This document shows positions 156-41,087 of a stretch of DNA of 47,739 bases, piece by piece. This DNA is from a virus. The notes below the pieces were generated by a model. That model was not told the origin of the DNA. It searched no databases and worked only from the letters and a program-made list of their open reading frames with translations. The stretch lies in the IMG/VR virus record IMGVR_UViG_3300028854_000025, positions 1 to 47,739 of that record. The stretch is one strand, 5' to 3'. The translations under genes and the position numbers were made by a program. Positions within the stretch are counted from its first letter, which is position 1, and each line of letters opens with the position of its first letter.

Positions 156-1121
156 TTAAGGGGTAAATTCACTATTTGTTATTGGGATGTCACCGCCAAA
201 TAAGGCATCTTCATTAATTCTATCTCCAATTGTAGCGGGTTCTTGTTCTTTTTGTGCTGCTGCTTGTTCTTTTATTTGATTATCTAACATTTTCAAGTAT
301 ACTCCATACTCACCAACTGTGCATTTATCTAAATAGTCTGCTGATATCTTACTGGACAACTCGTATATATTATGATACATACTCATTAAATCATCGGAAA
401 ATAAAAGCTTCAATATGAAGGCTAAATTATTAATCTCTATATTTATTGGTATAACATAATTATCCGAAATAGCTGGATTATTCAAGATTTTTAACACGTT
501 TATCTTACTCATATCCTCACACAACTCCTTAATCTTCTTGAACACTTTCAAAGAACATTTAGCAGGAAGTCGGCTAAAGATACTGCTCCTGTCCTTAACA
601 CTAATATTCTTATCAATAGTAATAACCCCTTTGTTCATAAAAGCTATTGATTCAATAAATACTGAATAATCTATATCCCCACTTTTCAGTTCTTGAAACG
701 ATAAAAGTTCTATAACTGTCGGAAGTCTGTATGTCATCTCATACTCTTCATGTATTAAAGTGGATTCCTTTAAAAAATCCACTTTAATATTTGAAAAAAT
801 ATTCAAAACATGATCAATATCCAATGTAATTGTAGTGTTCGCGTTCTCATTTAACATGTTTAACCTAAGAGTGTTCCCTAAACTTATACTTCTTACGTTT
901 ATAAGTATGATAAACAAGTCTACAAAATCTAAATTCTCTATTTCTGTAAGTGATAAATCTGTATATTCAATTAAAATTCTATGAACGTTCGTAAAAGCAA
1001 CTTTTGGGTTGGGTATATCTCCTAATAGAGATTTTAAAAGAACTCTATAATCACTTAGAAGGATTTCTCTTACATAAACATCTCTCCCAAAAATGTCTAA
1101 TATATTTACAAAGTTACTCAC
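156..1121 (-). CDS. putative T4 gp26-like baseplate hub/assembly protein
   Basis: A 321-residue soluble protein starting at GTG (1119-1121). The first 130 residues are helix-rich, with a pattern of a charged helix, then LS-x-E, then R-x-x-SIG-like spacing, which recalls the T4 gp26/T4_baseplate family of baseplate hub assembly proteins. No catalytic motif is seen. The C-terminal 40 residues are Gln/Glu/Ala-rich and probably disordered. It is the last gene of the tail block, 30 bp after a tube-like gene, which fits a baseplate role. The family call is weak; it could be another tail assembly chaperone. T4 gp26 itself is shorter, at about 208 residues. Confidence 0.4.
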   Translation of the reverse strand: MSNFVNILDIFGRDVYVREILLSDYRVLLKSLLGDIPNPKVAFTNVHRILIEYTDLSLTEIENLDFVDLFIILINVRSISLGNTLRLNMLNENANTTITLDIDHVLNIFSNIKVDFLKESTLIHEEYEMTYRLPTVIELLSFQELKSGDIDYSVFIESIAFMNKGVITIDKNISVKDRSSIFSRLPAKCSLKVFKKIKELCEDMSKINVLKILNNPAISDNYVIPINIEINNLAFILKLLFSDDLMSMYHNIYELSSKISADYLDKCTVGEYGVYLKMLDNQIKEQAAAQKEQEPATIGDRINEDALFGGDIPITNSEFTP

Positions 1122-1127
1122 AATAAC

Positions 1128-1155
1128 GATTTAATTGTTTTAATCTAAAAATCAA
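1128..1155 (-). promoter_or_regulatory. possible sigma70-type promoter before 1121 gene
   Basis: TTGATT, 16 bp, TAAATC on the minus strand; the -10 element ends 6 bp before the GTG start. It has the same geometry as stronger copies elsewhere in the window. The -10 is poor, so this is a weak call. Confidence 0.25.
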
Positions 1156-1847
1156 GTCAATATATCACCGCTAGAATCAACTGTGTAGTAATTATAAACA
1201 AATTCTGATTGTCGAATATGCGGTGAAGTAACTGGTTGATAGTTATATTCTTCATTACCTACACTTATAGGACATACGCCATAGAAACTAAATGTTTGAC
1301 GAATGTATGGTGGTAAATCTCTACTAACCACCCCCAATTTATAAAAAGTAGCATTTGTTCTATAGTCATAAGTGCTTCCTTTAGGATATGCAACCATTCC
1401 TAGATACGATGTTACTATAACCCAAGGTCTAACAACGTTTTCCACAAAGCTGACATTGTTATCAAAGAAATCAATTGTTAAATTTTCTCTATCTGATCGA
1501 CCTCTACTTATACTTGGACGTAACAATCCACCATATTGAATGCCTTCATTGGATATCTGAAAAGCCTCCCCTGGGAGTCTAACCGCATAAGCAAACATAC
1601 ATCCCTTAATCTTAAAGAAGGTATCGTTTGTAGCCAATGAATTATAAGCGTTCTCAATATTCCATTTACCTGCAAAATTTGGGTCAAAGTCTGCTACTTT
1701 CGATATTACAGAAGGGAATCCATCAAAAGTAATAATCCATTGAGCACCTTTAGGTAAAGCACCAGCAGGTTCAGTTAGTATACTAGCGAAGAAATACCCT
1801 ACCTGTCCAGTAAACGTAGATTCTCCTGTTGCTATAGGTGTTGCCAT
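1152..1847 (-). CDS. tail-tube-like structural protein
   Basis: A 231-residue protein directly downstream of the tail tube gene. Mid-protein it has the order seen in gp19-type tube proteins: an R-LPGEAF segment, then a GG-LL-RPSISRGRS stretch, then TIDFFDNN and VENVVRPWV, that is, a beta-strand followed by a helix carrying a conserved Trp. There are no enzymatic motifs. T4 has tube-fold paralogues in the baseplate (gp48 and gp54), so this may be a tube initiator rather than the major tube protein. The C-terminal segment is rich in Tyr and Asn, as in other virion proteins here. Confidence 0.5.
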   Translation of the reverse strand: MATPIATGESTFTGQVGYFFASILTEPAGALPKGAQWIITFDGFPSVISKVADFDPNFAGKWNIENAYNSLATNDTFFKIKGCMFAYAVRLPGEAFQISNEGIQYGGLLRPSISRGRSDRENLTIDFFDNNVSFVENVVRPWVIVTSYLGMVAYPKGSTYDYRTNATFYKLGVVSRDLPPYIRQTFSFYGVCPISVGNEEYNYQPVTSPHIRQSEFVYNYYTVDSSGDILT

Positions 1848-1871
1848 ATTAATTACTTATGGCTAAAATTG

Positions 1872-2408
1872 TTAGTAACCCTGTCCTACTTGAGAGCTTC
1901 TCCAATAATGGTATGCCAAAGTAGATTGAACCGTAACAATAGTTCCTGCATCACCAATATTGTATTGGGAACTACCAATATTCATGACATATGCACCAAA
2001 CATTTTATAGTCTCTGATTGGTTGGTTCTGCTTATTCATTAGAATCATATCAATAACTGAAGCTACTGCTCCAATGTTATAATTACCAGTGCTAGTGCTA
2101 TCATCAAAAGTGTCAAATGTTGAATTTTCTAACAATGTTCTAATATCATAGTTCGAATCACATCTAAAGGTAACTGCAAATCCTGCTGAATCAGGGTATT
2201 GAGCAGTCCCTGGAACGTTAAAATTCAACCCCATAAAAGGGACTTGAATGTTGTTAATTGATCGACCAGGGAGGGATGCCGACTCTACATAAACTAACTC
2301 ATCTTCAGATAACACTACTGGCCCTAACTGTAGCAACCTGAATTGAAATTGACGCGCAAAGTCTTTCTGTTGCGCTACCGTATAAAAATCTGAAATGTTT
2401 TGTCCCAT
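1872..2408 (-). CDS. gp19: tail tube protein (T4 gp19-like)
   Basis: This 178-residue protein has about the length of T4 gp19 (163 residues). It carries the tube-fold signature of SLPGRSINNIQVPFMGLN at about residues 45-62, then a Pro-Gly beta-turn, then FAVTFRCDSNYDIRTLLE. Polymerised hexameric rings of this family form the inner tube through which DNA passes. It is followed by another tube-like gene. Upstream, the sheath gene would normally be adjacent, but a homing endonuclease gene separates them. A late-type box lies just before the ATG and no clear Shine-Dalgarno is present. Confidence 0.8.
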   Translation of the reverse strand: MGQNISDFYTVAQQKDFARQFQFRLLQLGPVVLSEDELVYVESASLPGRSINNIQVPFMGLNFNVPGTAQYPDSAGFAVTFRCDSNYDIRTLLENSTFDTFDDSTSTGNYNIGAVASVIDMILMNKQNQPIRDYKMFGAYVMNIGSSQYNIGDAGTIVTVQSTLAYHYWRSSQVGQGY

Positions 2409-2415
2409 ATAATAT

Positions 2416-2423
2416 TATTTATC
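2416..2423 (-). promoter_or_regulatory. late-promoter-like box GATAAATA (tail tube)
   Basis: GATAAATA on the minus strand ends 7 bp before the ATG of the tail tube gene. It differs from the T4 late box TATAAATA only at the first base. Confidence 0.5.
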
Positions 2424-2431
2424 TCAAATAA

Positions 2432-4531
2432 TTAATTTTTGTTTGCATTCCACTCAAAAACATAACTTCCACAATCATATATTTTCAAATATCCACAATC
2501 TTTCATATTATCATCAGCAGTTTTATTAGGATTATACGATTCTCCTAATTTCTTACTCAACATATGTTTTTGAAAACCAACTCTATGATACACTTTACAT
2601 ATATTACTAGTTTTAAAATACCAAAAATTGGGAGGAGATAATCTAAGCAATTTAAACCCTAATTTATTATACAAATTTCCATCGCTATATCTTTTATTAG
2701 CATAACTTATAATTTTATCAGGATTATACTTTCTAATAAAATATTTAAACATTTTAGATGCTCCTCCTACAATAGTGTAATTAAGCTTACTACAATACCT
2801 TATCAATTCTAATGAAGGTTTAGCTCCGGTTATTTTCCTTTTACCAAACGTCATCACGGATAATAACTCTCCATTCTTATTAAAAAGTCCTATCTTATAT
2901 GTAGATTTATCGTTTCCTTGTATATGATTACATTCTAAGAATTTCTCCTTTTCTTTAGTAGAAATTTCTTTAACTATACAGTCTCTGGCATACATCCTAT
3001 ATTTATAAACTCCTAATTTACTAAGAATAATAGATTTAACTATATCCTTAGAAGTTATCCATTCGTTCTCAAAAACATGAATTAATTGAATACCTGAAAG
3101 ATCACACATGGTAGATTTATTAATGTGATAATTTTTATCTAATCTATCATTACTATGCCAATATAATCCATTAAATTCTATAGCTACCTGTTTATTGGGG
3201 ATGTATATATCTAATTCTAAAGGGGGAATAACCTTTTTACTATTCGATACTACTTCGCAGTCTATGTTTTCTCGAACATATTCTAGCATATCGAATTCAG
3301 GTTTGGATATATCTCTTTTACTACACTTAGGGCATCTAACATCAAATGCAATATCTCTACAATATTTATATTCACAACGAGAACATTCAAAATTTATTAC
3401 TCCTGTATCTAAAAAATATTCTTTATTTGATATTATCTTTTCTTGTCGGCCATTCATTTTTTCTACCCACAAATCATAATTTTTACTTCGTAAAGATATT
3501 AGTATATTACTTCTATTCCTCTTAACGTTATTTTTTGCAGAACACCGTATACCACAACATTTTGAATATCCTATCTCAAAAGTATTGAACCTTGCATTTT
3601 TAGTATTACATTCTTCACAAATAGGAACTTTGGTTAATCTATTATGCAATAAATAAATCCTTTCATTAAATTTTATTATATCTCTGTATATAAAATTAGT
3701 ATAGTGCTCTATACTTTTAAATAGTTGTATATTTGTATTGAAAATTGTATTATAAAAAGATTTAGAACTAGTTGTTTTAATACAGGCATCCACACCTTTT
3801 AACGTATCTTCATGAGATAGTATATTTACATTCATATTATTTCTAATCTGTTTATTTATTTTATTAGATAGTTTAACACATTCCACGTTTTTACACGACC
3901 CATACCCTTTATTGTGAGATATAAAATGTAACTTACAATTGCAATGTTTACACGTTAATGTTGTATCTTTATTCAACATTAGAAATATTCCCTCATTGAA
4001 ATTTTCCGCGTATTTTTTTATTATATAATTATACCATACAGGTTTTTTATATAAAAAATGAACTTTTAAATCGTTAAGTGATCGATGTTCTATATATTTT
4101 TTTATATCTTCTTCCTCTATGTTATCTATACTGGAATTTAACGCATCTTTTATCAAGATATTTTGGTGATCTCTTGCACTATAATTTAAAAGTCTTTTAG
4201 TGACTCCTCTCTTTCTTAAAAGTTCTTTATCTTTACATGTGCATCGTTTACAACAATATGTATTGTAGCTCCATTTTCTATTAATTCCAAACGTAAAAAT
4301 CTCGGTATTACACGATTTACATTTTGGATAAGACTTCAAATCACTCACATAATGATATAATAATTGCGAGGCATTTTTAATATTTAATTTATTTTTCTCT
4401 TTAAATTCAAGTAAATCATTTCGTAAAAAAGTAAAATCTTTAAACAGTTCCCTCATAAAAAATTGTTTATATTTATTACGATATTCGTTTACCAGTTCTA
4501 TATGTAAAGGCTTTGATAAAGTAGATGTCAT
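2432..4531 (-). CDS. free-standing homing endonuclease, zinc-rich, PD-(D/E)XK/Vsr-like
   Basis: A 699-residue protein between the sheath and tube genes. The N-terminal two thirds carries repeated CxxC clusters (CKSC/CCKRC, CKHC, CEEC/CCGIRC, CSRC, CPKC), likely zinc-bound DNA-recognition modules. The nuclease core at about residues 435-490 reads LDIYIPNKQVAIEFNGLYWH followed by IQLIHVFENEW, the pattern of phage endonucleases with a Vsr/PD-(D/E)XK fold. The last 200 residues form a second domain often attached to these nucleases, with a GNAT-like look. T4-like phages normally have sheath and tube genes adjacent, so this is an insertion. No intein or intron boundary is seen around it. Confidence 0.8.
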   Translation of the reverse strand: MTSTLSKPLHIELVNEYRNKYKQFFMRELFKDFTFLRNDLLEFKEKNKLNIKNASQLLYHYVSDLKSYPKCKSCNTEIFTFGINRKWSYNTYCCKRCTCKDKELLRKRGVTKRLLNYSARDHQNILIKDALNSSIDNIEEEDIKKYIEHRSLNDLKVHFLYKKPVWYNYIIKKYAENFNEGIFLMLNKDTTLTCKHCNCKLHFISHNKGYGSCKNVECVKLSNKINKQIRNNMNVNILSHEDTLKGVDACIKTTSSKSFYNTIFNTNIQLFKSIEHYTNFIYRDIIKFNERIYLLHNRLTKVPICEECNTKNARFNTFEIGYSKCCGIRCSAKNNVKRNRSNILISLRSKNYDLWVEKMNGRQEKIISNKEYFLDTGVINFECSRCEYKYCRDIAFDVRCPKCSKRDISKPEFDMLEYVRENIDCEVVSNSKKVIPPLELDIYIPNKQVAIEFNGLYWHSNDRLDKNYHINKSTMCDLSGIQLIHVFENEWITSKDIVKSIILSKLGVYKYRMYARDCIVKEISTKEKEKFLECNHIQGNDKSTYKIGLFNKNGELLSVMTFGKRKITGAKPSLELIRYCSKLNYTIVGGASKMFKYFIRKYNPDKIISYANKRYSDGNLYNKLGFKLLRLSPPNFWYFKTSNICKVYHRVGFQKHMLSKKLGESYNPNKTADDNMKDCGYLKIYDCGSYVFEWNANKN

Positions 4532-7392: not shown

Positions 7393-9207
7393 TTACGGAC
7401 GATATATTGTATAACCCAAGTCAATTAAATCGTCAATATCTAGGTCATCCTCTAGGTTTAAGTCTCCTGTTAGGGAAGTATATTTCTTAACTGAAATATC
7501 GTAGCCAGATGGAATAATCACATTTCCATTAGTTAAGTCTTTCAACGAATATAAACTTGAATCATTTTCGTAATAATCATTTCTAGATATTTTTAAAGGC
7601 TTCTGTTGATCATCATGTTCATCGATGTTAAAATATTGTTGACATAGATCGGTTTCTAGCATGAACAAAGACCAAACCAACCCCATTACATAATCGTCAT
7701 AATATTTTTCACCCTTTTTACGATATACCCCATTCGGAAACCTGATAAACGTTTCCAATTCTGAAATAGTTTGCATGTCATATATCTTTACAACTTGCAA
7801 GAAATTGATCCAATATCTCAAATTACTAACAGCGTTGAAACGTATGTTATTATGACTGAAAACCCCCATGCCTTTTGTTGATTTATAGTCTCCTGTTTGA
7901 CCTACCTTTCCATAACTCACAATTTTCTCATATAATAAATTGTGAGCCAGTGCATCCAGTGTCTGAGCACCACAATTATTTCTTTCAATTAATAAAGGAG
8001 GATTGCCCCAAGAACCGCACAGATTGACCAGTCTATTAGCGAAATGATATGGTTCTATGGTATTTGACCCATATACTGCTGCCTGTGTTATCTTGGTCAA
8101 ATCTGTGACATTTAGAACATGTGCAGTTGATGATGCTCTACCAACACCCTCTCCAACGTCACACCCAATAACATATAAATTGTTTTTATCAGGATTTTCA
8201 TAAACTCTATAAGTTCCATCCTCACTTTTCCAAATAGGTAAACGTTTTTGTTCTTTAAAATCCTGAATGACATTAAAACCTACAGCAGCAGTAGCAGAAT
8301 CAAGGAACACATTACCAAACTCTTGTGCAAACGATTCTTCGGAGCCGAGGGTGTTGATCATGTCCTTTTTCCATTTCTCATTACGGCCCGGCACATCCCA
8401 CCAATCAATTTTCTCATTAGTCCACCCATTAGTGCCTTTCTCTGCACCACTATACATTTCATAGAACTTATTTCCAATTCCATTTGGTGTGCTTACCATG
8501 AAAATCTTACTCTTTTTTCCCGAAGATATAGTAGGAATAACAGACTTCCAAAACTCTTCGAGCAGGTGAGAATCTATGTGCGCTGCTTCATCGATAAATA
8601 AAACATTTATCGACATACCCCTAGCGGCTGAAGATGTGGTTGTGCTTACTCTAATAGCACTACCATTGGCTAGAACCATAGCAGTCTTACCATATTCCTT
8701 CACACCAGGTTTTAAATAATTCGGAAGTAACTCGTATGCCAATCGAATACGGCTAAATATTGATATGGCGGTATCCTCTTTATTTGCCACAATTAACATG
8801 TTTTGATCTGAAGTAAAACAACAAATCCAAAGGGCAAATATAGTGGCTAATGTTGAATTATGACTTAATATTCCGTTTGTAAAAAATGTGTGAGATTCTG
8901 AATCAATGGAAATATCATACATTTTTTGAGGAGGAACATCTAATCTAACAACCGATTTTACTTTTTCTATTCCTGTTTCTGTTATGATTTCATCCCCTAT
9001 CTTCAAATCTCTAACATATACTTCTCCTCCCCTACCATTAATTACTATATGTTCATCGGCGCATTCCAAAAAATAGTTGTCTGTTTCTAACCTCCACACA
9101 TCAAAAGGAATTGTTTCATGAACTTCTTGAATGTCCACCCATCCATTTTCTGTCCACACTTCATAATCTTCGACTTTATAGGAGTTTATAAACTTATTAT
9201 TGTCCAT
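7393..9207 (-). CDS. terL: terminase large subunit, C-terminal part with N-terminal split intein IntC
   Basis: A 604-residue ORF. Residues 1-117 are the C-terminal piece of a split intein, ending THTFFTNGILSHN. Residue 118 (Ser) begins the terminase, STLATIFALW, which completes the Walker A motif. The remaining 487 residues hold Walker B (LFIDEAAHID), the coupling motif FMVSTPNG and the nuclease start VIGCDVGEG, as in T4 gp17, the motor that packages DNA into proheads. Joined to the 102-residue N-extein the product is 589 residues, close to T4 gp17 at 610. Neither half alone has an intact ATP site. The ORF begins 7 bp after an endonuclease gene. Confidence 0.95.
   Translation of the reverse strand: MDNNKFINSYKVEDYEVWTENGWVDIQEVHETIPFDVWRLETDNYFLECADEHIVINGRGGEVYVRDLKIGDEIITETGIEKVKSVVRLDVPPQKMYDISIDSESHTFFTNGILSHNSTLATIFALWICCFTSDQNMLIVANKEDTAISIFSRIRLAYELLPNYLKPGVKEYGKTAMVLANGSAIRVSTTTSSAARGMSINVLFIDEAAHIDSHLLEEFWKSVIPTISSGKKSKIFMVSTPNGIGNKFYEMYSGAEKGTNGWTNEKIDWWDVPGRNEKWKKDMINTLGSEESFAQEFGNVFLDSATAAVGFNVIQDFKEQKRLPIWKSEDGTYRVYENPDKNNLYVIGCDVGEGVGRASSTAHVLNVTDLTKITQAAVYGSNTIEPYHFANRLVNLCGSWGNPPLLIERNNCGAQTLDALAHNLLYEKIVSYGKVGQTGDYKSTKGMGVFSHNNIRFNAVSNLRYWINFLQVVKIYDMQTISELETFIRFPNGVYRKKGEKYYDDYVMGLVWSLFMLETDLCQQYFNIDEHDDQQKPLKISRNDYYENDSSLYSLKDLTNGNVIIPSGYDISVKKYTSLTGDLNLEDDLDIDDLIDLGYTIYRP
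8857..9207 (-). other. split intein C-fragment (terminase)
   Basis: 117 residues containing most intein blocks: block B as ADEH (the usual Thr of TxxH is Ala), then the block F/G end FFTNGILSHN. The +1 residue is Ser. The break point lies close to the intein N-terminus, so IntC is long and IntN very short. That is the atypical split of the AceL-TerL family, known from environmental terminase genes. Confidence 0.92.
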
Positions 9208-9214
9208 ATGCTAA

Positions 9215-10474
9215 TTAACCATTACGTATAAAATCTAAACAGTCATCGATAACCTTTTGCTTGTTCGCATTATACTTCTTTTCGTTGACTATAAAAAACG
9301 AACAATTTAAAGTTTTCTTTATTTCTTTCTCACGTTCAATATCTCTTTCAATAGTATATTTACCTCTAATATTTCTTTCAGAATGCCAATATTCTCCATT
9401 AAATTCTATAACCTTGTTCACATCCCTTATATAAAAATCCAATGATCGTATCGTTTTATCGGTTTTAACTTTATATTCATAATTTTTCCCAACATCTTCT
9501 AGACACTTATTTTCATTTAAAGTAGCAAAGAAAATATCTAAATATTCTTCTTTGATTATCATATATATACTCCAAAACAATTCTTGTGATATGTTGGAAT
9601 AACTTTTAGTCGGAAGGGATGACAGCCATTTACTAGTAATATTTTTTCTTTTTTCAGTGGCTTCATAAATATCACATTTTTCTCTTTTCATTATGGCATC
9701 TACCGAATTTGTAGTTTGTCTTTCTCTTATTTTCAATATAGCTCCATCTTCTGTATATCCTTTTTTTATCCAATATCCTAATTGATTTGGCATGTTTTGT
9801 GATTCTTTCTGACCTTTGCTAATTCCTTCTCCGCAACAGTGTCTATTATGGTTTTTATTATAATAGTTTATGTTACAACTCGTATTATAACAAAAGCTGT
9901 CATATCCTTCCCAAATATTGTTAAATTTCATGTCTTTATAACACCATAAACATTTGCCTCTTTCACCATTAAAATGTTTTAAATAGTATTCTTCGTCCGA
10001 TCCGTGAGTTTCTGTGATGTGACTTGTTAAATGTGCCTTATTTGCATATTTCATATCACACTCCAAACACCTAAATTTATAATCATCAATATTAAATTTT
10101 CCAGATGTTATGTTAAATTGTTGATTTGAATGTGTTATACAACATGCTCCTCTCCTAATATGTTCATACGGAACTTTTTTATCACAATCTATTAAAGAAC
10201 ACTTAGAACCTTCTAAAAAGTATTTATTATATATTTCTTTCTTATTTTCGATGTTTTGAGTTGTTAGTGCTAGAGACACACTTTTCCAGTTTTCAAAATA
10301 TGCATTTAATTCCTCAACTAAAGTATATTTCTTAAGGTCTTCTATGGTGTGATCTACATTTTTCTTATTTTTCTTATATAAGTGCCTAACTAATGATCCT
10401 GCAAATAATCCATACGTTTTACTCTGAAATTCCGTAATTTTTCTTCCAGTAACTCTACAATATTTCTCCTTCAT
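9215..10474 (-). CDS. homing endonuclease between terminase intein halves
   Basis: I chose the ATG at 10474 (419 residues, MKEKYCRVTGRK) over an upstream TTG. The protein has several Cys pairs and one clear C2H2 zinc finger (CLECDMKYANKAHLTSHITE, next residues THG). The nuclease core near the C-terminus reads LDFYIRDVNKVIEFNGEYWH, then FIVNEKKYNANKQKVIDD. This is the same core type as the endonuclease at 2432-4531, resembling Vsr/PD-(D/E)XK homing enzymes. It lies between the N- and C-gene pieces of terminase on the same strand, with 22 bp after the N stop (measured from the TTG) and 7 bp before the C start. It would cleave intein-free terminase alleles and spread the whole arrangement. Confidence 0.85.
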   Translation of the reverse strand: MKEKYCRVTGRKITEFQSKTYGLFAGSLVRHLYKKNKKNVDHTIEDLKKYTLVEELNAYFENWKSVSLALTTQNIENKKEIYNKYFLEGSKCSLIDCDKKVPYEHIRRGACCITHSNQQFNITSGKFNIDDYKFRCLECDMKYANKAHLTSHITETHGSDEEYYLKHFNGERGKCLWCYKDMKFNNIWEGYDSFCYNTSCNINYYNKNHNRHCCGEGISKGQKESQNMPNQLGYWIKKGYTEDGAILKIRERQTTNSVDAIMKREKCDIYEATEKRKNITSKWLSSLPTKSYSNISQELFWSIYMIIKEEYLDIFFATLNENKCLEDVGKNYEYKVKTDKTIRSLDFYIRDVNKVIEFNGEYWHSERNIRGKYTIERDIEREKEIKKTLNCSFFIVNEKKYNANKQKVIDDCLDFIRNG

Positions 10475-10479
10475 GATTA

Positions 10480-10507
10480 TATTTAACCATATAATCAATA
10501 AAATCAA
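10480..10507 (-). promoter_or_regulatory. possible promoter for terminase-linked endonuclease
   Basis: TTGATT, 16 bp, TAAATA on the minus strand; the -10 ends 5 bp before ATG 10474. It would allow expression independent of the terminase N-part. Weak. Confidence 0.3.
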
Positions 10508-10529
10508 ACATTATCCTGCTTGGGGGTTG

Positions 10530-10928
10530 TTAAAAACGATCATAAAACTCTTTTACTGTAAGTTCCTCAACATTATTAGTTTCTGTTCTTCTAACCTTAA
10601 TTTTAGTTTTGTCAATAAAACATTTACCTGCTTGTCTAGAACTTAACAAAACGACGAAGCGGTTCTTCTGAAGGCTTTTAAGAACCTTTTTTTGGGCGGG
10701 ATAAAGTTCGATAGTTTCTTTACCTCTATCAAGATTAACAATAGTAAAATGATTCTCCGCAAAATGAACAATATTATCCTTACAGTTCTTTAATTCTTTA
10801 ACCATTGCAGGAGTAAAGTTAAACTGTGCGTCTTCTTTTGGAAGTTTTTTATCACCACGGTAAAATTGTTTTTCATCGATAGGGTTACTATTAATGATAT
10901 CATCGGGGTTGGCTAATTCATCAGACAT
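10530..10928 (-). CDS. terL: terminase large subunit, N-terminal part with split intein IntN
   Basis: 132 residues. Residues 1-102 are the start of the terminase, ending FVVLLSSRQAGK, the first part of Walker A (T4 gp17 has SRQLGKTT). At Cys103 the sequence changes to an intein N-piece of 30 residues, CFIDKTKIKVRRTETNNVEE and on to the stop. The fragment has an adenine-binding region but no Walker A Ser/Thr or Walker B, so it cannot work alone. The C-partner is encoded about 1.3 kb downstream, beyond an endonuclease gene. A terminator lies just upstream; GGAGG stands 16 bp from the ATG, which is rather far. Confidence 0.93.
   Translation of the reverse strand: MSDELANPDDIINSNPIDEKQFYRGDKKLPKEDAQFNFTPAMVKELKNCKDNIVHFAENHFTIVNLDRGKETIELYPAQKKVLKSLQKNRFVVLLSSRQAGKCFIDKTKIKVRRTETNNVEELTVKEFYDRF
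10533..10622 (-). other. split intein N-fragment (terminase), 30 residues
   Basis: Begins with the catalytic Cys1 right after SRQAGK and ends at the stop codon. Very short IntN fragments like this define the atypical naturally split inteins. It pairs with the IntC at 8857-9207. Confidence 0.9.
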
Positions 10929-10963
10929 ATTTTAAACTACTTAACCTCCTATATAAAAATTAA

Positions 10964-10993
10964 AAGGGGTTGTGAACTTAATCACAACCCCTT
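10964..10993 (-). terminator. Rho-independent terminator upstream of terminase
   Basis: A 12-bp perfect stem (AAGGGGTTGTGA on the plus strand) with a 6-nt loop. On the minus strand it is followed by TTAATTTTTATAT. It ends transcripts of the gene at 11015-11218 and insulates the terminase gene. Confidence 0.8.
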
Positions 10994-11014
10994 ACATTCT
11001 ACAGTTATAGGATT

Positions 11015-19655: not shown

Positions 19656-20624
19656 TTATGAAAATAATTCAACTAAATCGGTAGCTGCTTCGTTTTTAAG
19701 GTCTGGTAAATACCATCCCACACAAGTATAGATGCGTTCTATCTCTTTAGCTATTAACTTATAGAACATTTTGTCAATATCTATCTTCAAAACTGCAAAT
19801 TCCTTGGGATATTCACTAGCATATGCTATAGCATCCAGATTGTATGGGTTCTTCTTCAGATAGAACAACTTAATCTTTTGATCTGATACAATTCTTTCAT
19901 ACTTGTCCTCAACGTCAAGTTCCTTTAAAAGGATATTATAAGCTATACTTGCCTTAACGTGATATGGTGTTCCCGACTCAAATTTATGTAAGGACGCCTT
20001 CTCTGCATACTCCTCTAAGTTATGCACAGCAGTTCTTTCAGCCATGTCATCAATCGTCAACGATTTAAACTCTTCGTATACTTCCTTGTATACTGCATTA
20101 GTTTTCTTCTCGTTTTTAGTCGTTAGAAGGGTTTCCATTACTTTTTTAAGACCGTGTTTTACCTGCTTAGATACAGTAGATTTAGCAACCTTAACTCCGA
20201 CATACTTATATTTTGAAACCTTCTTACCTTCATCGTCAACTACATGTAATACGTAGTTCTTCTTCATTAAGAAGGTTCCTGCATCGGATATAACCTCTCG
20301 CTTAAACACATATCGAGGGTCTAATGTAAAAAGCTGCTGTTTCGCAAGCTCGTTGATTCCTTCGTTTAAATATACATCGAGGTCATCAATCACCTTATTC
20401 GCTTCTTCAGACACAGATAAGTATTCGTTTAACAGTTTGATACCCATTTTTTGTAAAATAGGATGTATAGAAAAATAAACCGAATTATGAACGAGTATAT
20501 CATTGGCAAAATACACTTGTTCTTCCTCATTTGTTGTATCCATTTCAAAATCGTAAACATATTCGTCTTGAAAATTTTCAAGTTGTTCTACTCTAAAATC
20601 GTCGGTAATGTTTATTTTATACAT
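19656..20624 (-). CDS. gp43: DNA polymerase gp43, C-terminal part with split intein IntC
   Basis: 322 residues. Residues 1-47 are intein, ending VYFANDILVHN. From Ser48 the polymerase resumes, SVYFSIHPIL, completing motif C (DTDS). The remaining 275 residues include the thumb (FKREVISDAGTFLMKKNYVL and KYKYVGVKVAKSTVSK, as in family B). Added to the 627-residue N-extein this gives 902, against 898 in T4 gp43, so nothing of the polymerase is missing. Its ATG lies 11 bp after the N-part stop and in a different frame; a small endonuclease relic overlaps this junction. Confidence 0.95.
   Translation of the reverse strand: MYKINITDDFRVEQLENFQDEYVYDFEMDTTNEEEQVYFANDILVHNSVYFSIHPILQKMGIKLLNEYLSVSEEANKVIDDLDVYLNEGINELAKQQLFTLDPRYVFKREVISDAGTFLMKKNYVLHVVDDEGKKVSKYKYVGVKVAKSTVSKQVKHGLKKVMETLLTTKNEKKTNAVYKEVYEEFKSLTIDDMAERTAVHNLEEYAEKASLHKFESGTPYHVKASIAYNILLKELDVEDKYERIVSDQKIKLFYLKKNPYNLDAIAYASEYPKEFAVLKIDIDKMFYKLIAKEIERIYTCVGWYLPDLKNEAATDLVELFS
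20484..20624 (-). other. split intein C-fragment (DNA polymerase), 47 residues
   Basis: Contains the C-terminal splicing blocks with a typical block F (EYVYDFEMDT) and the end ANDILVHN, followed by Ser+1. It pairs with IntN at 20639-21025. This is the usual split position, unlike the terminase and gp46 inteins. Confidence 0.9.
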
Positions 20625-20703
20625 AATTTAAAAACTTAACACCTTGATGTATAACATCTTCTGGATTTATTATATAGTCTCCCTCCCATACACATAATTT
20701 TAT
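20617..20703 (-). pseudogene. relic of homing endonuclease C-terminus in polymerase junction
   Basis: In the +1 frame relative to the N-part, 28 codons read IKLCVWEGDYIINPEDVIHQ then GVKFLNYV and stop, with the stop codon overlapping the ATG of the C-part. This matches the C-terminal end of Vsr-like homing endonucleases: V-W-E-x-D-Y, then N-P-E-x-V-I, then F-L. It also parallels FIVNEKKYNANKQKVIDD and DFIRNG at the end of the terminase-linked enzyme. The upstream part of the endonuclease is deleted. Confidence 0.7.
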
Positions 20704-22906
20704 CTAATTTTTCAATATTCTTTGGTGAAACTCGAACAAATTTACCATTTCGTAATATAACAAGGCAATGATCTTCTGTTATAACCACACTTTTTCCATT
20801 CACTGTAAGTTTATATCTTTTCTTAGATACCTTATGTCTAATTATACGTTTTGTTTTTTCGTAGGATACTTTACCGTCTCTATATGTCAGTATTTTTAAT
20901 CCATCGGTATATTTTATTTCATGATTGTTTGTAGTAAATGATATATCGTTTACATTTTCCGTCCACAAGTCTTGAATTTGTTTCTGACCCATGCTACTTC
21001 GAATTATGGTGTCTTTTCCTACGCTGTCCGTGTCACCCGCTATAACAATGCTTTTATCTATGTCAAATGTTTCTTTAGCATATTTATCTCCTAGGTTTCC
21101 TGCTTCCTGTCCAACCCACTGTCCCGTTTCCGTAATCGATCTAGCTGCATCAACGTCAGCTAGAAAACAGTAATTGTTAGCCAACGCACCATAGATAGAA
21201 TTCATAAAAATCTTCAATGAGTATTGCAAAATATCTTGATAGACCTCTTCCATCTTTTCTACTTCAGTCTTATGTTTAACTTTACTTAAATCTTTTGATC
21301 TCTTTCTAGCTAGAACCCTTTTGTTATATAGATCATCAATTAATATAGGCAGAATGCCCTTCTTCTTTTGGGAGTATAGAATATTGGACTTCGTGAGTGC
21401 AATTTTTTCATCTGTAATAAACTTCTTTAACTTTTTAACGGGTATTTTATAGTTATTCCCATTCACTAGCATTAAGTCGGCAACATCCTCGTCATTACTC
21501 ATGTCAGGAGTGTTTTTTATCTTTCCAACTTTAGTTTCGGGAGATATATTCAAAGTAATAATCGTGTTTGGATATAGACTATTCGCATCAAAAGATATGA
21601 TAGATTCTTGTATGCCTGTTACTACTTCTCGAACAAATCCTCCAGGGAAATTGCCCACGTTATCAACATCGAAAGTTGGAATTATCAAATCCTCCTTTTT
21701 AGCTTGGATTGCTACTGCGCCCTCAACCAGCTTCACTTTACCCAAAGCGTTCTCAAAATTGGAACATCCTTGATAAGACATCAATCTTGCAACTTGAATA
21801 TATTTCAACTTAGCTTCTAGGTTATTTACAACTCTAACATCCTGAATATTATAATCTACGAAATTCTCCCAATCTGTATCAGCTAAGGTAGATAAATTTG
21901 TGGCATTAATCGCCAGTTTACCTTCTCCTAATTCCACTTCACCTATATAATTTAAACTGTAAGATTCACGTTTCTCCCTAGTAAACGTTTTATATAGCAT
22001 CATGTAGTCGAGAACGCTCACACCTTGAAATATCCACTTTTCAAAATATTTTCCAAATCCTCCATTCGTTCTAGTAGAAAACACTTTGTCTACTGGCGAC
22101 AACATTTTAATCGCGTCTGCACCCATAACGTTCTTAATTCGATTCACTAAGTAGGGTATATCGAATTCTAGGACGTTCCACCCCGTTATAATATCAGGAT
22201 AATCACTTTTAATATATGTCAAAAATCCCGTTAATATATCTACTTCGGTTTCACATTTATGGTAGAAGCTATTATCAGTTTTTGGTATATAATCTTTTTC
22301 TCCCCAAGTATGATATTGATTCGTTAAAGAATCGTGAATGGTTATAAGCAAAATTGGGAATTTGGCAGTATCTGGATTTGGAAAAGTCTGCTTAAAATAA
22401 CATGAATTCTTTATCTTTACCCAAGCCTTCTCCTCTACGTCTTTCACCAGCCATCCATCTTTCTCAAATGAACGTAATTCTGATACTGTGGTTTCTGCCT
22501 TCTCCCCTGCATCATTCTTGAGTTTTACCTTATCGTTATTAGCATACTTGTTACATTTTGTTTCAATGTCAATGTTAATAACCTTCAAAGGAAACTTACT
22601 AAATTCCTTATCATCAATCTTATCATAATAAGAATCTACAAGAAATTGCTGTTCTGCTGGAAGGTTGTAATAGAATTTTAAATGACCACTATGAGATTCA
22701 ACATACTTCTTCCGATCAAAAGTGTTCTTAAAATAAACCCTTTTAAGCGGAGTATTAAAAATGGATTTACCATCTTTTGCGTTATCTGTCTCTACATACA
22801 GATACGGCTTATATGGAACATAGATATCCTCTCGTTCTCCATTCAATTTCCAAGTCCTAAGAAAGATGCTCTCTTTCTTATAATCATAATACGCATTCCT
22901 AAACAT
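20636..22906 (-). CDS. gp43: DNA polymerase gp43, N-terminal part with split intein IntN
   Basis: 756 residues. Residues 1-627 carry the 3'-5' exonuclease motifs (VINIDIETKC, WNVLEFDIPYLVNRI, YNIQDVRVV), polymerase motif A (SFDANSLYPNTII) and motif B (KIFMNSIYGALANNYC), ending IVIAGDTD. From Ser628 the intein begins (SVGKDTIIRSSMGQ). This is the pol-c site in motif C known for archaeal polymerase inteins. Without the C-part the second catalytic Asp lacks its context and the thumb is missing, so trans-splicing is needed for any replication by this enzyme. A promoter-like sequence stands just upstream. Confidence 0.95.
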   Translation of the reverse strand: MFRNAYYDYKKESIFLRTWKLNGEREDIYVPYKPYLYVETDNAKDGKSIFNTPLKRVYFKNTFDRKKYVESHSGHLKFYYNLPAEQQFLVDSYYDKIDDKEFSKFPLKVINIDIETKCNKYANNDKVKLKNDAGEKAETTVSELRSFEKDGWLVKDVEEKAWVKIKNSCYFKQTFPNPDTAKFPILLITIHDSLTNQYHTWGEKDYIPKTDNSFYHKCETEVDILTGFLTYIKSDYPDIITGWNVLEFDIPYLVNRIKNVMGADAIKMLSPVDKVFSTRTNGGFGKYFEKWIFQGVSVLDYMMLYKTFTREKRESYSLNYIGEVELGEGKLAINATNLSTLADTDWENFVDYNIQDVRVVNNLEAKLKYIQVARLMSYQGCSNFENALGKVKLVEGAVAIQAKKEDLIIPTFDVDNVGNFPGGFVREVVTGIQESIISFDANSLYPNTIITLNISPETKVGKIKNTPDMSNDEDVADLMLVNGNNYKIPVKKLKKFITDEKIALTKSNILYSQKKKGILPILIDDLYNKRVLARKRSKDLSKVKHKTEVEKMEEVYQDILQYSLKIFMNSIYGALANNYCFLADVDAARSITETGQWVGQEAGNLGDKYAKETFDIDKSIVIAGDTDSVGKDTIIRSSMGQKQIQDLWTENVNDISFTTNNHEIKYTDGLKILTYRDGKVSYEKTKRIIRHKVSKKRYKLTVNGKSVVITEDHCLVILRNGKFVRVSPKNIEKLDKIMCMGGRLYNKSRRCYTSRC
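20639..21025 (-). other. split intein N-fragment (DNA polymerase), 129 residues
   Basis: Starts with Ser1. Block B has the intact TxxH form in VVITEDHCLVILRNG. The last 18 or so residues (from MCMGG to the stop) are the wrong-frame reading of the endonuclease relic and probably not needed for splicing. Confidence 0.9.
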
Positions 22907-24229: not shown

Positions 24230-24399
24230 TTAAATTGCTACTACATATTTTATGGGATCAGAAGATTTATATCCAACTAATTCCGTATCGGGTAACCCGC
24301 TATAGTTAAACAATCTTCTCCAGTTCTATTATTTTTCCATTTACCTTCACAAAGAATCTTGTTTATTAATCGGTTGTATTGTATATCTGCGTTGTTCAT
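24230..24399 (-). pseudogene. thyA: thymidylate synthase remnant (internal deletion)
   Basis: A 40-codon frame (24277-24399) reads IQYNRLINKILCEGKWKNNR then TGEDCLTIAGYPIRN and stop. It matches the thymidylate synthase N-terminus position by position (QY-x2-L-x2-K-x-L-x-EG-x2-KN-x-RTG-x3-L-x-I-x-G-x3-R). A second frame, ending at 24230, reads DTELVGYKSSDPIKYVVAI, which matches the C-terminus (E. coli ThyA ends FEIEGYDPHPGIKAPVAI). The roughly 200 residues between, including the active-site Cys, are gone and the ends are out of frame. The start overlaps the gp46 stop (ATGA), so it was once a coupled gene. Confidence 0.8.
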
Positions 24400-26423
24400 A
24401 TTTTTGCTAAGTTGCTAAACCCATTTTTCTTTTCAATACAAATACTGTTATCCACCTTACTTGTTATTGCTGCGCCTCTATGGGTAATAATATACGCATT
24501 TTCCTTAAACTGATCTACTCTATCTCGTAAAACCTCTAATACCAATTCAACTCCTCTATCATCCAATGAAGAGTCGAGAAGTTCATCGTAGAAAGTTGCG
24601 CTAAATGAAACATCGCCTTGCATCCTTCTAATATCCAAAAAAGAAAATAAACAAGCCAGATCAATCCTTTTTCTTTCACCACCAGAGAAATTAAAATATG
24701 ACTTTGGCTCCTGTCGCTCATCTATAATCTCCTCTTCGAAAAGTTCATTGAATCGACAAATACAGTTAGCTTCAAACTTCTGAAGATAATACGCCATCTT
24801 TTTGTTAAGGATTGTCAATATCTTCTTAATAATATATGACTTAACTCCTTCTTCCGACACTACAAACTTAATACAATCAAGGATATTCAATCTCTTATCC
24901 ATATCTACCAAATCCAACTTATAGTTCTCCAATAAAACCTCAGTATCCTTAACGGTCTTTTCTAATATTGCATTGGATTCTGCTTCGATCTTAATGATGT
25001 CTTTCTTATATGACTCAATTGTTTCAAGGGTATAGTCAATTTTACTGGTCAACTTATCATTCGAATTCGTTTTATTTGTAATATCCTGCAAAGCATCATC
25101 CAGTTTTTTTATCTTCGCTGCAATCTCTGTTTTCTTTTCATTTAGTGGAGCAAACTTTTTATTAACTTCCTTTTCCTGATCTTGAAACTCTAACAATTTT
25201 TTACCTAAATCCTTCTTAAGCTGTTCTCTACCTTCTGCATCATCGTTTTCATACGGTCTTTTACAAGTAGGGCAAGATGAACTCTTTTGACTCAAGGAAG
25301 ATATTTGAGAGGCTACCTGACGAGCCTCAGACTTAACATCCGACACTTCCTCAACAATTTTACGGTAATCAGCTTCAATCTGCTGAAGTTCTGTATTAAA
25401 ATCCTTCTTTTTGTTTTTGATAATTACATCAAATCCCACATCTACCTTGATAAATTGCTTTTTAAGAACCTCTACGCTTTCTTCTGCTGTTTTTATCTTA
25501 GTATTAACGTCAACAATACGCTTTTGTTTATTACTCTCAAACAAGTCCATTTGTTGTTTGTTTAGTTCATAAGATTGCTGTAGGGTATCTTTTTTAGTGT
25601 AAAGATTCTCATATTCTCTACGTAATTCATTATACTCATCCCTAGTAGACTTGAGCATCGCAGAAAATACTTCTAAATTAACAACATTTTCAATGAACTT
25701 TCTCTTATCGATTTTTTCTTGGGCTAGAAAAGGGGTAGTATCATTAATCGTCATGATGACAGAGTTTTTAAATACGGCACCAGAAGAGTTTACTAATTTT
25801 TGAATAAATGCACTCGTTGCATCAATAGTAGATTTTGTTTCGTCTACCCCATTCCTTTCCAAGATACATTTTGATGGGCTAAGTTTCCTTGTAATCTTAT
25901 ACTCGTCTTTGGCGGTTTCTGTCTCAATATCCATCCACAATATAACTTCACAATTTTTTTTATTTATAGAGTTAACTATGAAGTTATTCTTCAATTCTCT
26001 AATTGTTTTTCCAAATAAAGAGAAATATAAGGATTCTGCTATAGTAGAATTATGTGATATTATTCCATTTGCATAAAACTCTTTATACTTTCTAACCTGC
26101 AAATCATACATGTCCATATATGATTTTGTTACAACTACATCTGATACTATCTCAACCCCATCTACCGTATGTATGGTATCATTAGGATTAAAGTCTTTTA
26201 TCTTTTTCCACCCATCGTCGGATAGTAACATATGATTCTTAGACCCGTTTAATTGTCTTCCTTTTTCTGTCTGTATTTTTAATACTTGTTCGTTCCTCGC
26301 GGTAATACCTACCTCATCCACAGGCAAATACCCAAACCTAGAATTTACTAAAACTTTTCCCTTACATTCTGGAAATTCTTCATAAAAGTCATGTAGTCTT
26401 TTTATAGTTGTTGTATATTTCAT
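24396..26423 (-). CDS. gp46: recombination nuclease subunit gp46, C-terminal part with split intein IntC
   Basis: 675 residues. Residues 1-125 are an intein piece ending EFYANGIISHN. From Ser126 comes STIAESLYFSLFGK, completing Walker A of an SMC/Rad50-type ATPase. Then follow a long coiled coil with the zinc hook CPTC (SSCPTCKRPY), a second coil, the signature FNFSGGERKRIDLAC, Walker B region DELLDSSLDD and the H-loop YIITHRG. With 49 residues from the N-part the protein is 599 residues (T4 gp46: 560). gp46 with gp47 resects DNA ends for recombination and degrades host DNA. The ORF ends in an ATGA overlap with the thymidylate synthase remnant. Confidence 0.95.
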   Translation of the reverse strand: MKYTTTIKRLHDFYEEFPECKGKVLVNSRFGYLPVDEVGITARNEQVLKIQTEKGRQLNGSKNHMLLSDDGWKKIKDFNPNDTIHTVDGVEIVSDVVVTKSYMDMYDLQVRKYKEFYANGIISHNSTIAESLYFSLFGKTIRELKNNFIVNSINKKNCEVILWMDIETETAKDEYKITRKLSPSKCILERNGVDETKSTIDATSAFIQKLVNSSGAVFKNSVIMTINDTTPFLAQEKIDKRKFIENVVNLEVFSAMLKSTRDEYNELRREYENLYTKKDTLQQSYELNKQQMDLFESNKQKRIVDVNTKIKTAEESVEVLKKQFIKVDVGFDVIIKNKKKDFNTELQQIEADYRKIVEEVSDVKSEARQVASQISSLSQKSSSCPTCKRPYENDDAEGREQLKKDLGKKLLEFQDQEKEVNKKFAPLNEKKTEIAAKIKKLDDALQDITNKTNSNDKLTSKIDYTLETIESYKKDIIKIEAESNAILEKTVKDTEVLLENYKLDLVDMDKRLNILDCIKFVVSEEGVKSYIIKKILTILNKKMAYYLQKFEANCICRFNELFEEEIIDERQEPKSYFNFSGGERKRIDLACLFSFLDIRRMQGDVSFSATFYDELLDSSLDDRGVELVLEVLRDRVDQFKENAYIITHRGAAITSKVDNSICIEKKNGFSNLAKI
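26049..26423 (-). other. split intein C-fragment (gp46), 125 residues
   Basis: A long IntC holding nearly all splicing blocks: block B as SKNH (Ser for the usual Thr), DLQVRKYKEFYANG as block F, HN end, Ser+1. Same atypical split as the terminase intein. Confidence 0.9.
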
Positions 26424-26517
26424 GTAGTTCGTTTTTAATATTGTTAAGTTGGGTATAGTAATCTAAATGCGACCAAATAACAAAAACTTTATACCCCAAT
26501 TTTTTTGCCACGGGGAA
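26389..26517 (-). pseudogene. relic of homing endonuclease C-terminus in gp46 junction
   Basis: In the frame shifted from the gp46 N-part, 42 codons read FPVAKKLGYKVFVIWSHLDY then YTQLNNIKNELHEIYNNYKK TT and stop, overlapping the IntC start by 35 bp. The GYKVxVIW-x3-DYY pattern is typical for the C-terminal end of Vsr-like homing endonucleases. No catalytic core precedes it. It resembles the relic in the polymerase gene, which has VWEGDYI. Confidence 0.7.
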
Positions 26518-26755
26518 AATATTCAATATTTTTAAAATATTTTTCAAACTTTTCCTGCACCATTTTATCTTCAATACAAATATCGATATTAGTTAGTGGA
26601 TCAAGACACTTACCTGCTCCATTTTTTGCATCGGGTTTATCAAGATTCCTACCTACTATCAAATTAATTCCATCTTGGAAATCAATTATAACTGGTATGT
26701 CTCCAATAGAAAGGAAATTTCTAATAGACAGTCTTTTAAATGATACCCTACGCAT
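26489..26755 (-). CDS. gp46: recombination nuclease subunit gp46, N-terminal part with split intein IntN
   Basis: 88 residues. The first 49 read as the start of gp46 (FKRLSIRNFLSIGD, INLIVGRN) and end in NGAGK, the Walker A site. From Cys50 an intein N-piece begins, CLDPLTNIDICIEDKMVQEK. The last 12 residues (from about EYFPRG) come from reading into the endonuclease relic in the wrong frame. The fragment cannot hydrolyse ATP by itself. The C-part begins 65 bp downstream. A promoter-like sequence lies only 6 bp before the ATG. Confidence 0.93.
   Translation of the reverse strand: MRRVSFKRLSIRNFLSIGDIPVIIDFQDGINLIVGRNLDKPDAKNGAGKCLDPLTNIDICIEDKMVQEKFEKYFKNIEYFPRGKKIGV
26492..26608 (-). other. 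split intein N-fragment (gp46)
   Basis: Starts with Cys1 after NGAGK. About 28-30 residues look like genuine IntN, similar in length and spacing to the terminase IntN; the rest is relic sequence. Confidence 0.88.
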
Positions 26756-33371: not shown

Positions 33372-34234
33372 TAAGTTATTCCTCGTTTATGTTGTTTTAT
33401 CCAATCAATTACCCTTTCTGGTGATTCTTTAAAAGTCTGTGCTGGATAATGACCGTTTTTAACACGATACTTCTCAGCATTTTCTTGAACATTCCTCATC
33501 CAAGCTTCAGTATTTTTCGACATTGAACTGTTCTTTATAGAATCTTTTTGTGGTTCTAAATATTCATCGCTGTTTCCTATATCTGCAAAATACCAGAAAG
33601 GAGGGTGAAATCCTGCTTTAATAGCCTGATACGTATGATCAACGTGGTCCCAAGCGTTCTTATACTGTTCATCAATATATCCAATGTTTTCAATAACACT
33701 TCGATGATAATATGAAAACATTCCAGCAATATGTTCATATAAAGCTATTCGAGTATCTACATCATAGTCAAATATAAGCTTTGGATTAGGTTCAGTTTCT
33801 AAGTCTAAGCTATCTCTATTATATAAATCGAAGTGACCTTTCTGTTTACGATTAAAGGGAGTTCCCAAAGCATAGTTTAAGTGAAGAATTCCTGAAGCTT
33901 CTGCCGTTTCAATATATTTCTGGAATACGTCACCTTTCTTAATTACAACATCGTCTTCTATAATGAAAATGTGATCACACCCCTTATCCATCAAGTATCG
34001 CATTGCATCATTTTTACTAATGCCAACCCCCTTATTTTGATCGTGGGTTATTACGTGTTCGTTATACTTGTCTAGGTTGCTAAACGTTGGATATATAGCT
34101 GATGATCCGTCATTCACTATAACTATATGATCATAACCAGCCCCACCATCAACATAACGCAAACTATTAAGACAGTTTGCAAAATACTGTGGTCTATCCT
34201 TCGTTATAATACCAACGCCAATGCTGTTATCCAT
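33371..34234 (-). CDS. glycosyltransferase family 2
   Basis: I start it at ATG 34234 (287 residues, MDNSIGVGIITKDRPQYFAN), which has AAGGGGG upstream; an earlier frame start would run through the HNH gene. HIVIVNDGSS, then DHIFIIEDDVVIKKGDVF (the E-D-D metal site) and NAWDHVDHTYQAIKAGFHPP (the W/ED-x-D-like acceptor motif) mark GT2. It partly overlaps the HNH endonuclease gene, suggesting the latter inserted at its start. Confidence 0.82.
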   Translation of the reverse strand: MDNSIGVGIITKDRPQYFANCLNSLRYVDGGAGYDHIVIVNDGSSAIYPTFSNLDKYNEHVITHDQNKGVGISKNDAMRYLMDKGCDHIFIIEDDVVIKKGDVFQKYIETAEASGILHLNYALGTPFNRKQKGHFDLYNRDSLDLETEPNPKLIFDYDVDTRIALYEHIAGMFSYYHRSVIENIGYIDEQYKNAWDHVDHTYQAIKAGFHPPFWYFADIGNSDEYLEPQKDSIKNSSMSKNTEAWMRNVQENAEKYRVKNGHYPAQTFKESPERVIDWIKQHKRGIT

Positions 34235-34856
34235 ATTTAGCCCCCTTTTTAATATTTTCATCCCACCACAACGGTTGAAGATTTGTATAATGAAAACATT
34301 CTTCTTGTTGCTTTGGATCACGTAAATCATATGATGCACAAGGGCGTTTATGATCAACATGCCATCCAAATCTACCATAAGTATCCCACGACATCCCTTC
34401 TTTGAATTGTGACTCTAAATGTTCTTTTAACGTGATTAAATCACACCCTAATAATATAGAAGTAGTGTTACACTTTTTAATTTTTTTAAGGTTTAAAAAA
34501 GTATTAACCCTTTTTCTTAAATTACATAATATTTTATATCCTAAATCCAATTTACATCGTTTCTTATGGTATATATTCTTAGCATGTGGATGCAATTTTC
34601 TATATTGGCGTTGATAATCCTTAAGTCGCTCTCTATTTAGAATGTAATATTCCCTATTCTCCTTTAACCTTTTAGTTTTATGTTTAAGTCTACTATTGCG
34701 TTTAGATATCCTTCTCAAATCCCTATGATTTTTATCATAATCCCGATCCCTAGAACGTATAGCATCTCTATTTTTTTCTCTATATTCTTTATTTTTTAAT
34801 GCAATTTTTTCTTTATTTTTAATTGCATATTGTTTCTGATGTTCAGTCCGTTGCAT
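34227..34856 (-). CDS. HNH endonuclease, free-standing homing type
   Basis: 209 residues. A very basic, repetitive N-terminal half (KNKEYREKNRDAIRSRDRDY) probably binds DNA. The C-terminal nuclease has GRFGWHVDHKRPCASYDL followed by CFHYTNLQPLWWDENIKKG, the H-x-D-H, N and W-x-x-N order of phage HNH enzymes. It sits between two glycosyltransferase genes and overlaps both by 8-14 bp. No intron is evident. It is likely a mobile gene that exploits the operon for expression. Confidence 0.85.
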   Translation of the reverse strand: MQRTEHQKQYAIKNKEKIALKNKEYREKNRDAIRSRDRDYDKNHRDLRRISKRNSRLKHKTKRLKENREYYILNRERLKDYQRQYRKLHPHAKNIYHKKRCKLDLGYKILCNLRKRVNTFLNLKKIKKCNTTSILLGCDLITLKEHLESQFKEGMSWDTYGRFGWHVDHKRPCASYDLRDPKQQEECFHYTNLQPLWWDENIKKGAKYG

Positions 34857-40673: not shown

Positions 40674-41087
40674 ATGGATTATGGACACTGGACTTTAGCT
40701 GAAGGAGTGGAACTGAATGAAGATACTTTCGGGTTCATCTACCTCGTTACAAACAAAAAGGATGGTAGACGATATATCGGAAAGAAGCAGTGTATATTCG
40801 CTTTAAAAAGAAAACCGTTAAAAGGTAAAAAACGTTGTAGAAGAGACGTTAAAGAGTCTAATTGGAAGAAATACACTGGTTCCTGTAAAAAACTAAACGA
40901 AGATATTAAACAGTTCGGTATGGAGAACTTTACTTTCTCAATTATCAAAGCATGTTGTTCGAAAAGCCAGTTAATGTATGAGGAAGCAAAAATGCTATTT
41001 GACTATAATGTTTTATTCTCTAAAGAATACTATAACGACAACATTCATTGTCGGTTACATAGGGTTAAAATAGATGATGGACAATGA
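40674..41087 (+). CDS. GIY-YIG-type endonuclease
   Basis: 137 residues. GFIYLVTNKKDGRRYIGKKQ is the GIY-YIG core (here FIY and YIG) with the following Lys; WKKYTGSCKKLNEDIKQFG and LMYEEAKMLFDYNVLF supply the aromatic and catalytic Glu positions; YYNDNI ends the domain. It is a single short domain without a DNA-recognition extension. It may be a phage endonuclease acting on host DNA or a minimal homing enzyme. An exact late box precedes it. Confidence 0.8.
   Translation: MDYGHWTLAEGVELNEDTFGFIYLVTNKKDGRRYIGKKQCIFALKRKPLKGKKRCRRDVKESNWKKYTGSCKKLNEDIKQFGMENFTFSIIKACCSKSQLMYEEAKMLFDYNVLFSKEYYNDNIHCRLHRVKIDDGQ

Follow-up and report, generated by a model that had tools for sequence, protein, structure and literature searches.

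A phage terminase gene fractured at its P-loop by a split intein with a putative homing endonuclease gene between the halves

How could a virus package its DNA with a terminase gene, terL, that is broken inside the P-loop? This question is raised by IMG/VR virus record IMGVR_UViG_3300028854_000025, the 47,739 nucleotides of which are called the window here. We conclude, with a probability of roughly 0.92, that terL in the window is a fractured gene with a homing element lodged in its P-loop, and that the two halves are rejoined by class 1 trans-splicing of a split intein. This reading is carried by the observed architecture, conserved catalytic residues, purifying selection, the HINT fold modelled for a contiguous relative, empty sites that are exact, and a swapped cassette. 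The parts of the locus are given below, where IntN and IntC are the N- and C-terminal intein pieces, HEN is the homing endonuclease gene, ORF is an open reading frame, and a slash marks an insertion or splice junction.

10530-10928, minus strand: terL N-part ORF, 132 aa (102-aa extein and 30-aa IntN)
10623..10928, minus strand: TerL N-extein, 102 aa, last residues SRQAGK, which is Walker A through its Lys
10530..10622, minus strand: IntN, 30 aa, CFIDKTKIKVRRTETNNVEELTVKEFYDRF, CFIDKTK...FYDRF, then stop
9215..10474, minus strand: putative homing endonuclease gene, 419 aa from ATG, with an N-terminal zinc-finger region and a C-terminal Vsr-like/EDxHD domain (D346, E357, H364)
7393-9207, minus strand: terL C-part ORF, 604 aa (117-aa IntC and 487-aa extein)
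8857..9207, minus strand: IntC, 117 aa, beginning 7 nt past the HEN stop codon, C-terminal end NGILSHN
7393..8856, minus strand: TerL C-extein, 487 aa, first residue the Walker A Ser (+1), STLATIF..., with the remaining ATPase domain and the nuclease domain
8857..10622, minus strand: entire element (IntN, HEN and IntC), 1766 bp, separating the Walker A codons for Lys and Ser (AAA/TCA)

Along the minus strand, the ORFs of 132, 419 and 604 aa follow one another in this order, and tail tube and tail sheath genes lie downstream of the split terL. Since the break separates the Lys of Walker A from its Ser, there is no complete P-loop in either half. A sequence-only reading of this DNA had described an N-part of SRQAGK plus a 30-residue intein piece, a C-part of a 117-residue piece followed by STLATIF, an endonuclease gene between them and exteins totalling 589 residues. 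All of this was confirmed (102 + 487 aa for the exteins, and a 419-aa ORF with EDxHD-type profile matches for the endonuclease). The split is also atypical, as claimed, being N-proximal with an IntN of 30 aa and an IntC of 117 aa.

The identity of the broken gene was determined from terminase family matches. PF03237 was matched at 2.4e-9, and the C-part matched T4 gp17 structures at 9e-37 in an alignment spanning C-part residues 117-512. PHROG terL was matched by both halves (N-part, 3.2e-18), and the ATPase and nuclease regions are both present after joining of the TerL halves. Together with the ORF anatomy, these matches bear out the earlier claim of a terminase broken by a split intein. Two further metagenome contigs matched the N-part, HEN and IntC at 100% (5104 bp) and 99.97% (6248 bp) identity with the same arrangement, which rules out an assembly artefact. 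Profiles built mainly from relatives recovered the N-part (2.6e-52), HEN (9.5e-122) and IntC (5.2e-49), indicating that the arrangement is not due to chance.

The intein pieces have the features of class 1, namely Cys1, block F Asp, block G His-Asn and a nucleophilic +1 residue (Ser). The canonical block B motif TxxH, which is not an absolute requirement, is only partly present, with the His kept and the Thr replaced by Ala. Residue conservation was counted over 61 deduplicated relatives drawn, like all relatives here, from IMG/VR and GenBank. The block B His and Ala, the block F Asp and the block G Ser were invariant (61/61). The penultimate His and terminal Asn were found in 60 of the 61, the single exception being LR756500, which ends in SSQ, and the +1 residue was Thr in 42 and Ser in 19. 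The sequence-only reading had taken the block B change to bear on the splicing mechanism. The change from Thr to Ala (CADEH) is real, but it is not specific to this locus; Ala is present in all 61 relatives and in the intein VidaL, which makes it a lineage trait, and we rejected it as a mechanistic anomaly. At the LR756500 locus (L008, 6616-8502), the IntC end is SSQ/T, not SHN/T, and long amphipathic-looking tails were seen on IntN and IntC at the split.

A contiguous close relative, L016 (153 aa), was modelled as a HINT domain. The top PDB match of the model was VidaL (6VGV; E 7.7e-8, probability 1.00), and many other inteins were matched as well. By way of this model, the fold of the window intein would be that of a HINT domain. 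The position of the window split corresponds to a variable linker in the alignment of L016 with other contiguous inteins and to a low-confidence linker of the L016 model. The ratio of nonsynonymous to synonymous substitution rates (dN/dS) was below 0.35 in nearly all computable comparisons, with values of 0.21-0.34 for IntN (and an outlier of 0.63 in one L011-L014 comparison), 0.05-0.14 for IntC and 0.14-0.26 for HEN. These ratios indicate that all parts of the fractured terL are under purifying selection.

These results bear on an explanation at the RNA level, in which the 1766-bp insert would be an intron of group I or II that contains an endonuclease ORF, the apparent intein residues being a coincidence. 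EDxHD endonucleases occur in group I introns too (PMC3943268), and terL of phage ICP1 is RNA-spliced (PMC10448857). However, the ends of the insert code for an entire HINT intein whose catalytic residues are invariant, and L016 and L033 are read through as single ORFs. Rfam gave no match in the window at the gathering score, and chance-level matches only in 8500-11000 at a relaxed threshold; the intron was rejected on this ground. We consider RNA-level splicing of this locus extremely improbable.

In the mechanism that we propose, the terL halves would be made as separate proteins, and translation of the C-part would be coupled to the stop codon of the endonuclease gene, as the 7-nt distance from this codon to the C-part ATG suggests. 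The 30-aa IntN would then thread into the 117-aa IntC to form a single HINT domain, and class 1 trans-splicing would proceed through Cys1, transfer to Ser+1 and Asn cyclisation. SRQAGK would be joined to STLATIF (junction SRQAGKSTLATIF), restoring Walker A and a 589-aa T4 gp17-like terminase. Because trans-splicing would recreate Walker A, it would be needed for the ATPase and for packaging. The zinc-finger and EDxHD endonuclease may cut an allele without its own cassette, and repair would copy the IntN-HEN-IntC element, or the IntN-HEN part alone, into the cut allele.

If the halves were instead decaying or non-splicing fragments, another terminase would have to package the DNA, or the halves would have to assemble non-covalently. 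The window record is partial, and truncated intein-free TerL-ATPase-like ORFs stand beside the fractured terL in L011, L014 and L022, as this explanation would allow. However, IntN and IntC are under purifying selection, the splicing residues are invariant across loci at 35-79% identity, and neither half has a full P-loop. No second terL copy or TerL paralogue was found in the 47.7-kb window. When eight larger records with this intein were searched with PF03237, seven, including the complete genome of Vibrio phage VmeM-32, matched at the split copy only, and the eighth gave no match above threshold. Decay or replacement of the split terL is thus very unlikely.

VmeM-32 is a clonal, plaque-forming isolate with a PacBio genome (PMC6483233). 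Its N-part (79950-80624, minus strand) lies beside gp16 and its C-part (1102-3216, plus strand) beside gp18, so that the terL halves are ~79 kb apart. No other terL was found by PF03237 in this complete genome. The joined protein would read SRQLGK/TTVTAIL at the junction. If the assembly is right, this phage would depend for its viability on joining or assembly of the halves in trans, and to this extent it lends indirect support to trans-splicing.

The HEN relatives aligned over the N-terminal zinc-finger region and the C-terminal domain, and D346, E357, G360 and H364 were invariant in the alignment (23 rows). The HEN profile matched I-Bth0305I (3R3P) at E 3.7e-4, and DUF559/MTES_1575 matches were found among the relatives. 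A first scan with the HEN alignment, which used weak patterns, found one distant locus only. Compared with Vsr, the fold matched 1VSR and 1CW0 at probabilities of 0.84 and 0.82 but at E ~0.2. From its sequence, the product is best called a putative Vsr-like/EDxHD homing endonuclease. At L134, on a 243-kb phage contig, an IS605-type TnpB ORF (2677-3900) was found within a degraded zinc-finger endonuclease between the split intein halves. TnpB was rejected as a new homing nuclease, since by eye this looks like an IS605-type insertion into the degraded HEN.

Empty, contiguous and swapped alleles were found at the same site in the nearest clades. Comparison of the intein-free allele L117 with the occupied L019 showed a 1744-bp insert exactly at AAA/TCA, with flanks 87.6% and 93.0% identical. 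In the 60 bp upstream of the site, identity was 48/60, vs 53-58/60 at a greater distance, and this drop is confined to the N side; a co-conversion tract or recoding of the target is possible. L016 is a contiguous, HEN-less version of the L017/L018 intein, with 80-87% DNA identity on both sides. L011 and L014 agree at ~98-100% identity as far as the N splice junction and once more from the endonuclease end onwards; between these points the amino acid identity is 38% for IntN and 52% for HEN. Their IntC proteins are identical (dS 0.016). This is a recent replacement of an IntN and HEN cassette, in which one IntC would partner very different IntNs. Changes between contiguous and fractured alleles occur several times on the tree, where at least five changes for the contiguous state are forced by the starred branches. 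In individual alleles, the change may have been either a gain or a loss of the endonuclease.

The intein family was collected in two scans, the first with 498 relatives, 80 of which were kept, and the second with 60, mostly new. The architecture tally covered 126 loci, near-copies among them. The intein was split with an EDxHD-profile endonuclease at 58, split without a large ORF between the halves at 26, split with another ORF between the halves at 3 and contiguous at 14. The endonuclease was fused to IntC at 1 locus, and the N-part was off the contig or not found at 24. The 26 loci without a large ORF would suit an endonuclease that inserted incidentally, after the intein had been split, and plays no part in intein mobility, as would the occurrence of other nuclease families (T5orf172, HNH/NUMOD3 and DUF7487-type) in the same gap. 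In contrast, the exact empty sites for the whole element, the recent cassette swap, which has the N splice junction as a boundary, and the alternation of HEN-less and HEN-bearing alleles on the tree fit homing. An incidental endonuclease is therefore unlikely, and we retain the reading of a homing element in a trans-spliced terL.

Several points weigh against this reading. Family knowledge is the basis on which we infer trans-splicing, the order of its chemical steps, translational coupling, the homing target and cleavage of DNA. With only a 47.7-kb fragment on record, an intact terL may lie elsewhere in the phage. The usual block B Thr is absent, though family-wide; the match of the HEN fold to Vsr is weak (E ~0.2, probability 0.82-0.84); and the dispersed VmeM-32 halves rest on one assembly.

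The relatives include further architectures. Three-piece terL genes have two split inteins, the second after an FxQE[FY] motif, and all three pieces are visible in L027, L031/L032, L035 and L085. A second IntN after this motif was seen in L025, L027, L028, L031, L032, L035, L038, L051, L066, L074, L075 and L085, and in three-piece terminases pieces 2 and 3 are often separated by a second endonuclease. L014 has a split intein and two contiguous inteins. Truncated intein-free TerL-ATPase-like ORFs (~230-270 aa) adjoin the fractured terL repeatedly, upstream of the N-part in L011, L014 and L091, between HEN and the C-part in L022, and at 8588-9406 in L008. Their Walker A is intact in most and degraded in L008.

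In L066/L067 (3750-5969) and L087 (2346-5357), an unbroken TerL intein, an insert of 443-448 aa, contains a complete endonuclease ORF in another frame, of 304 and 299 codons, respectively. The frame overlapping the nested endonuclease has 0 stops, vs ~18 and ~16 expected from synonymous re-sampling of the endonuclease codons, and 0 of 20,000 simulations were open in each case. The nested ORF is of EDxHD type in L066 and of HNH/NUMOD3 type in L087, so the arrangement has at least two origins. A 99-aa endonuclease remnant was found in the overlapping frame of an unbroken intein in L086 (3-2408). The ShiLan domain (PMC11855218) is a precedent for an endonuclease hidden in the other frame of an in-frame insertion; it has no splicing domain, whereas the carrier in L066 and L087 is a recognisable TerL intein.

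The window locus may be one state of a fracture cycle at the TerL P-loop, a proposal that we hold at even odds. The cycle would run through an empty site, a contiguous mini-intein, an overlapping-frame intein (L066/L067, L087) and a fractured gene with a free-standing endonuclease, as in the window; the endonuclease would then be lost or the cassette exchanged, and terminases in three pieces or with dispersed halves would complete the series. The missing step from intact to split would be the overlapping-frame intein, in which a second frame must stay free of stops up to the point at which a stop escapes and breaks the gene.

The locus can be compared with known systems. Fractured genes in which split inteins are accompanied by homing endonucleases of Vsr-like type were reportedly described by Dassa et al. 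in 2009. Such genes are said to be conserved phage enzymes broken by a split intein, with a free-standing Vsr-related endonuclease between the halves, as here, and the assignment of the locus to this class by the sequence-only reading is supported by a terL broken inside an intein with an endonuclease gene between the halves. The present case differs in that the whole locus and its genome context are visible, the host gene is terL, the site is Walker A Lys/Ser, and empty, contiguous, swapped and dispersed alleles were found. The AceL-TerL precedent, also named earlier, holds in part. AceL-, GOS- and Cat-TerL likewise have a TerL host, class 1 and an atypical N-proximal split (N-fragment 25-37 aa, C-fragment 104-115 aa), and Cat-TerL was matched weakly by the sequence profile (E 3.3e-5). 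However, they use Cys+1 (PMC11766414), whereas +1 here is the Walker A Ser/Thr, so the TerL site is a different one. VidaL is the best structural and sequence match and shares the block B Ala, but differs at ~20% identity. The contiguous TerL mini-inteins of Ackermannviridae (Det7 and Serratia phage Kevin, 159 aa; Vibrio phage SD25, 179 aa) are homologous, with an identical site (RQSGK/C...HN/TT) and block B Ala, and are unbroken with no endonuclease inside.

Other features of the window are as follows.

10964..10993, minus strand: terminator-like hairpin upstream of the N-part, from a consensus scan only
2432-4531, minus strand: 699-aa free-standing ORF among tail genes, EDxHD-type catalytic domain (profile E 1.1e-8)
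34227-34856, minus strand: endonuclease-like ORF, possible HNH, without Pfam support
40674-41087, plus strand: endonuclease-like ORF, SegE-type GIY-YIG (6.2e-33)
24396-26423 and 26489-26755, minus strand: gp46/SbcC-like gene split by an intein at Walker A (NGAGK/C...HN/STIAES)
19656-20624 and 20636-22906, minus strand: DNA polymerase B split by an intein at GDTD/S (Ser1, Ser+1), 11 bp between the ORFs
36550-38151, minus strand: probable sigma-like gene with a large contiguous intein (NY/CVDEE...YVTGN/SYKEEM), possibly with its own endonuclease domain

With the hairpin upstream, a new transcript probably begins at the terL N-part. T4-type late promoters (TATAAATA) were absent from the cassette and rarer in the window than in shuffled sequence. 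The gp46/SbcC-like IntC is related to the TerL IntC (5.9e-16), and there is no endonuclease between the gp46 halves. With terL, gp46 and DNA polymerase B, three replication or packaging genes of this fragment appear to need trans-splicing.

Split inteins are major protein-engineering tools, and their splitting and the dependence of the host on trans-splicing have mostly been inferred from metagenome fragments. The window arrangement is of a known kind, and the family around the locus is the more valuable result. The swap of IntN with an unchanged IntC suggests broad cross-compatibility, and three-piece terminases, with two split inteins per protein, are candidate natural orthogonal pairs. The relatives show how terL breaks arise, spread and revert. 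At a single insertion site these alleles can be compared directly, and among them is that of a cultured phage in which the only terL found consists of two distant pieces; where split inteins come from and what they do natively thus become testable questions.

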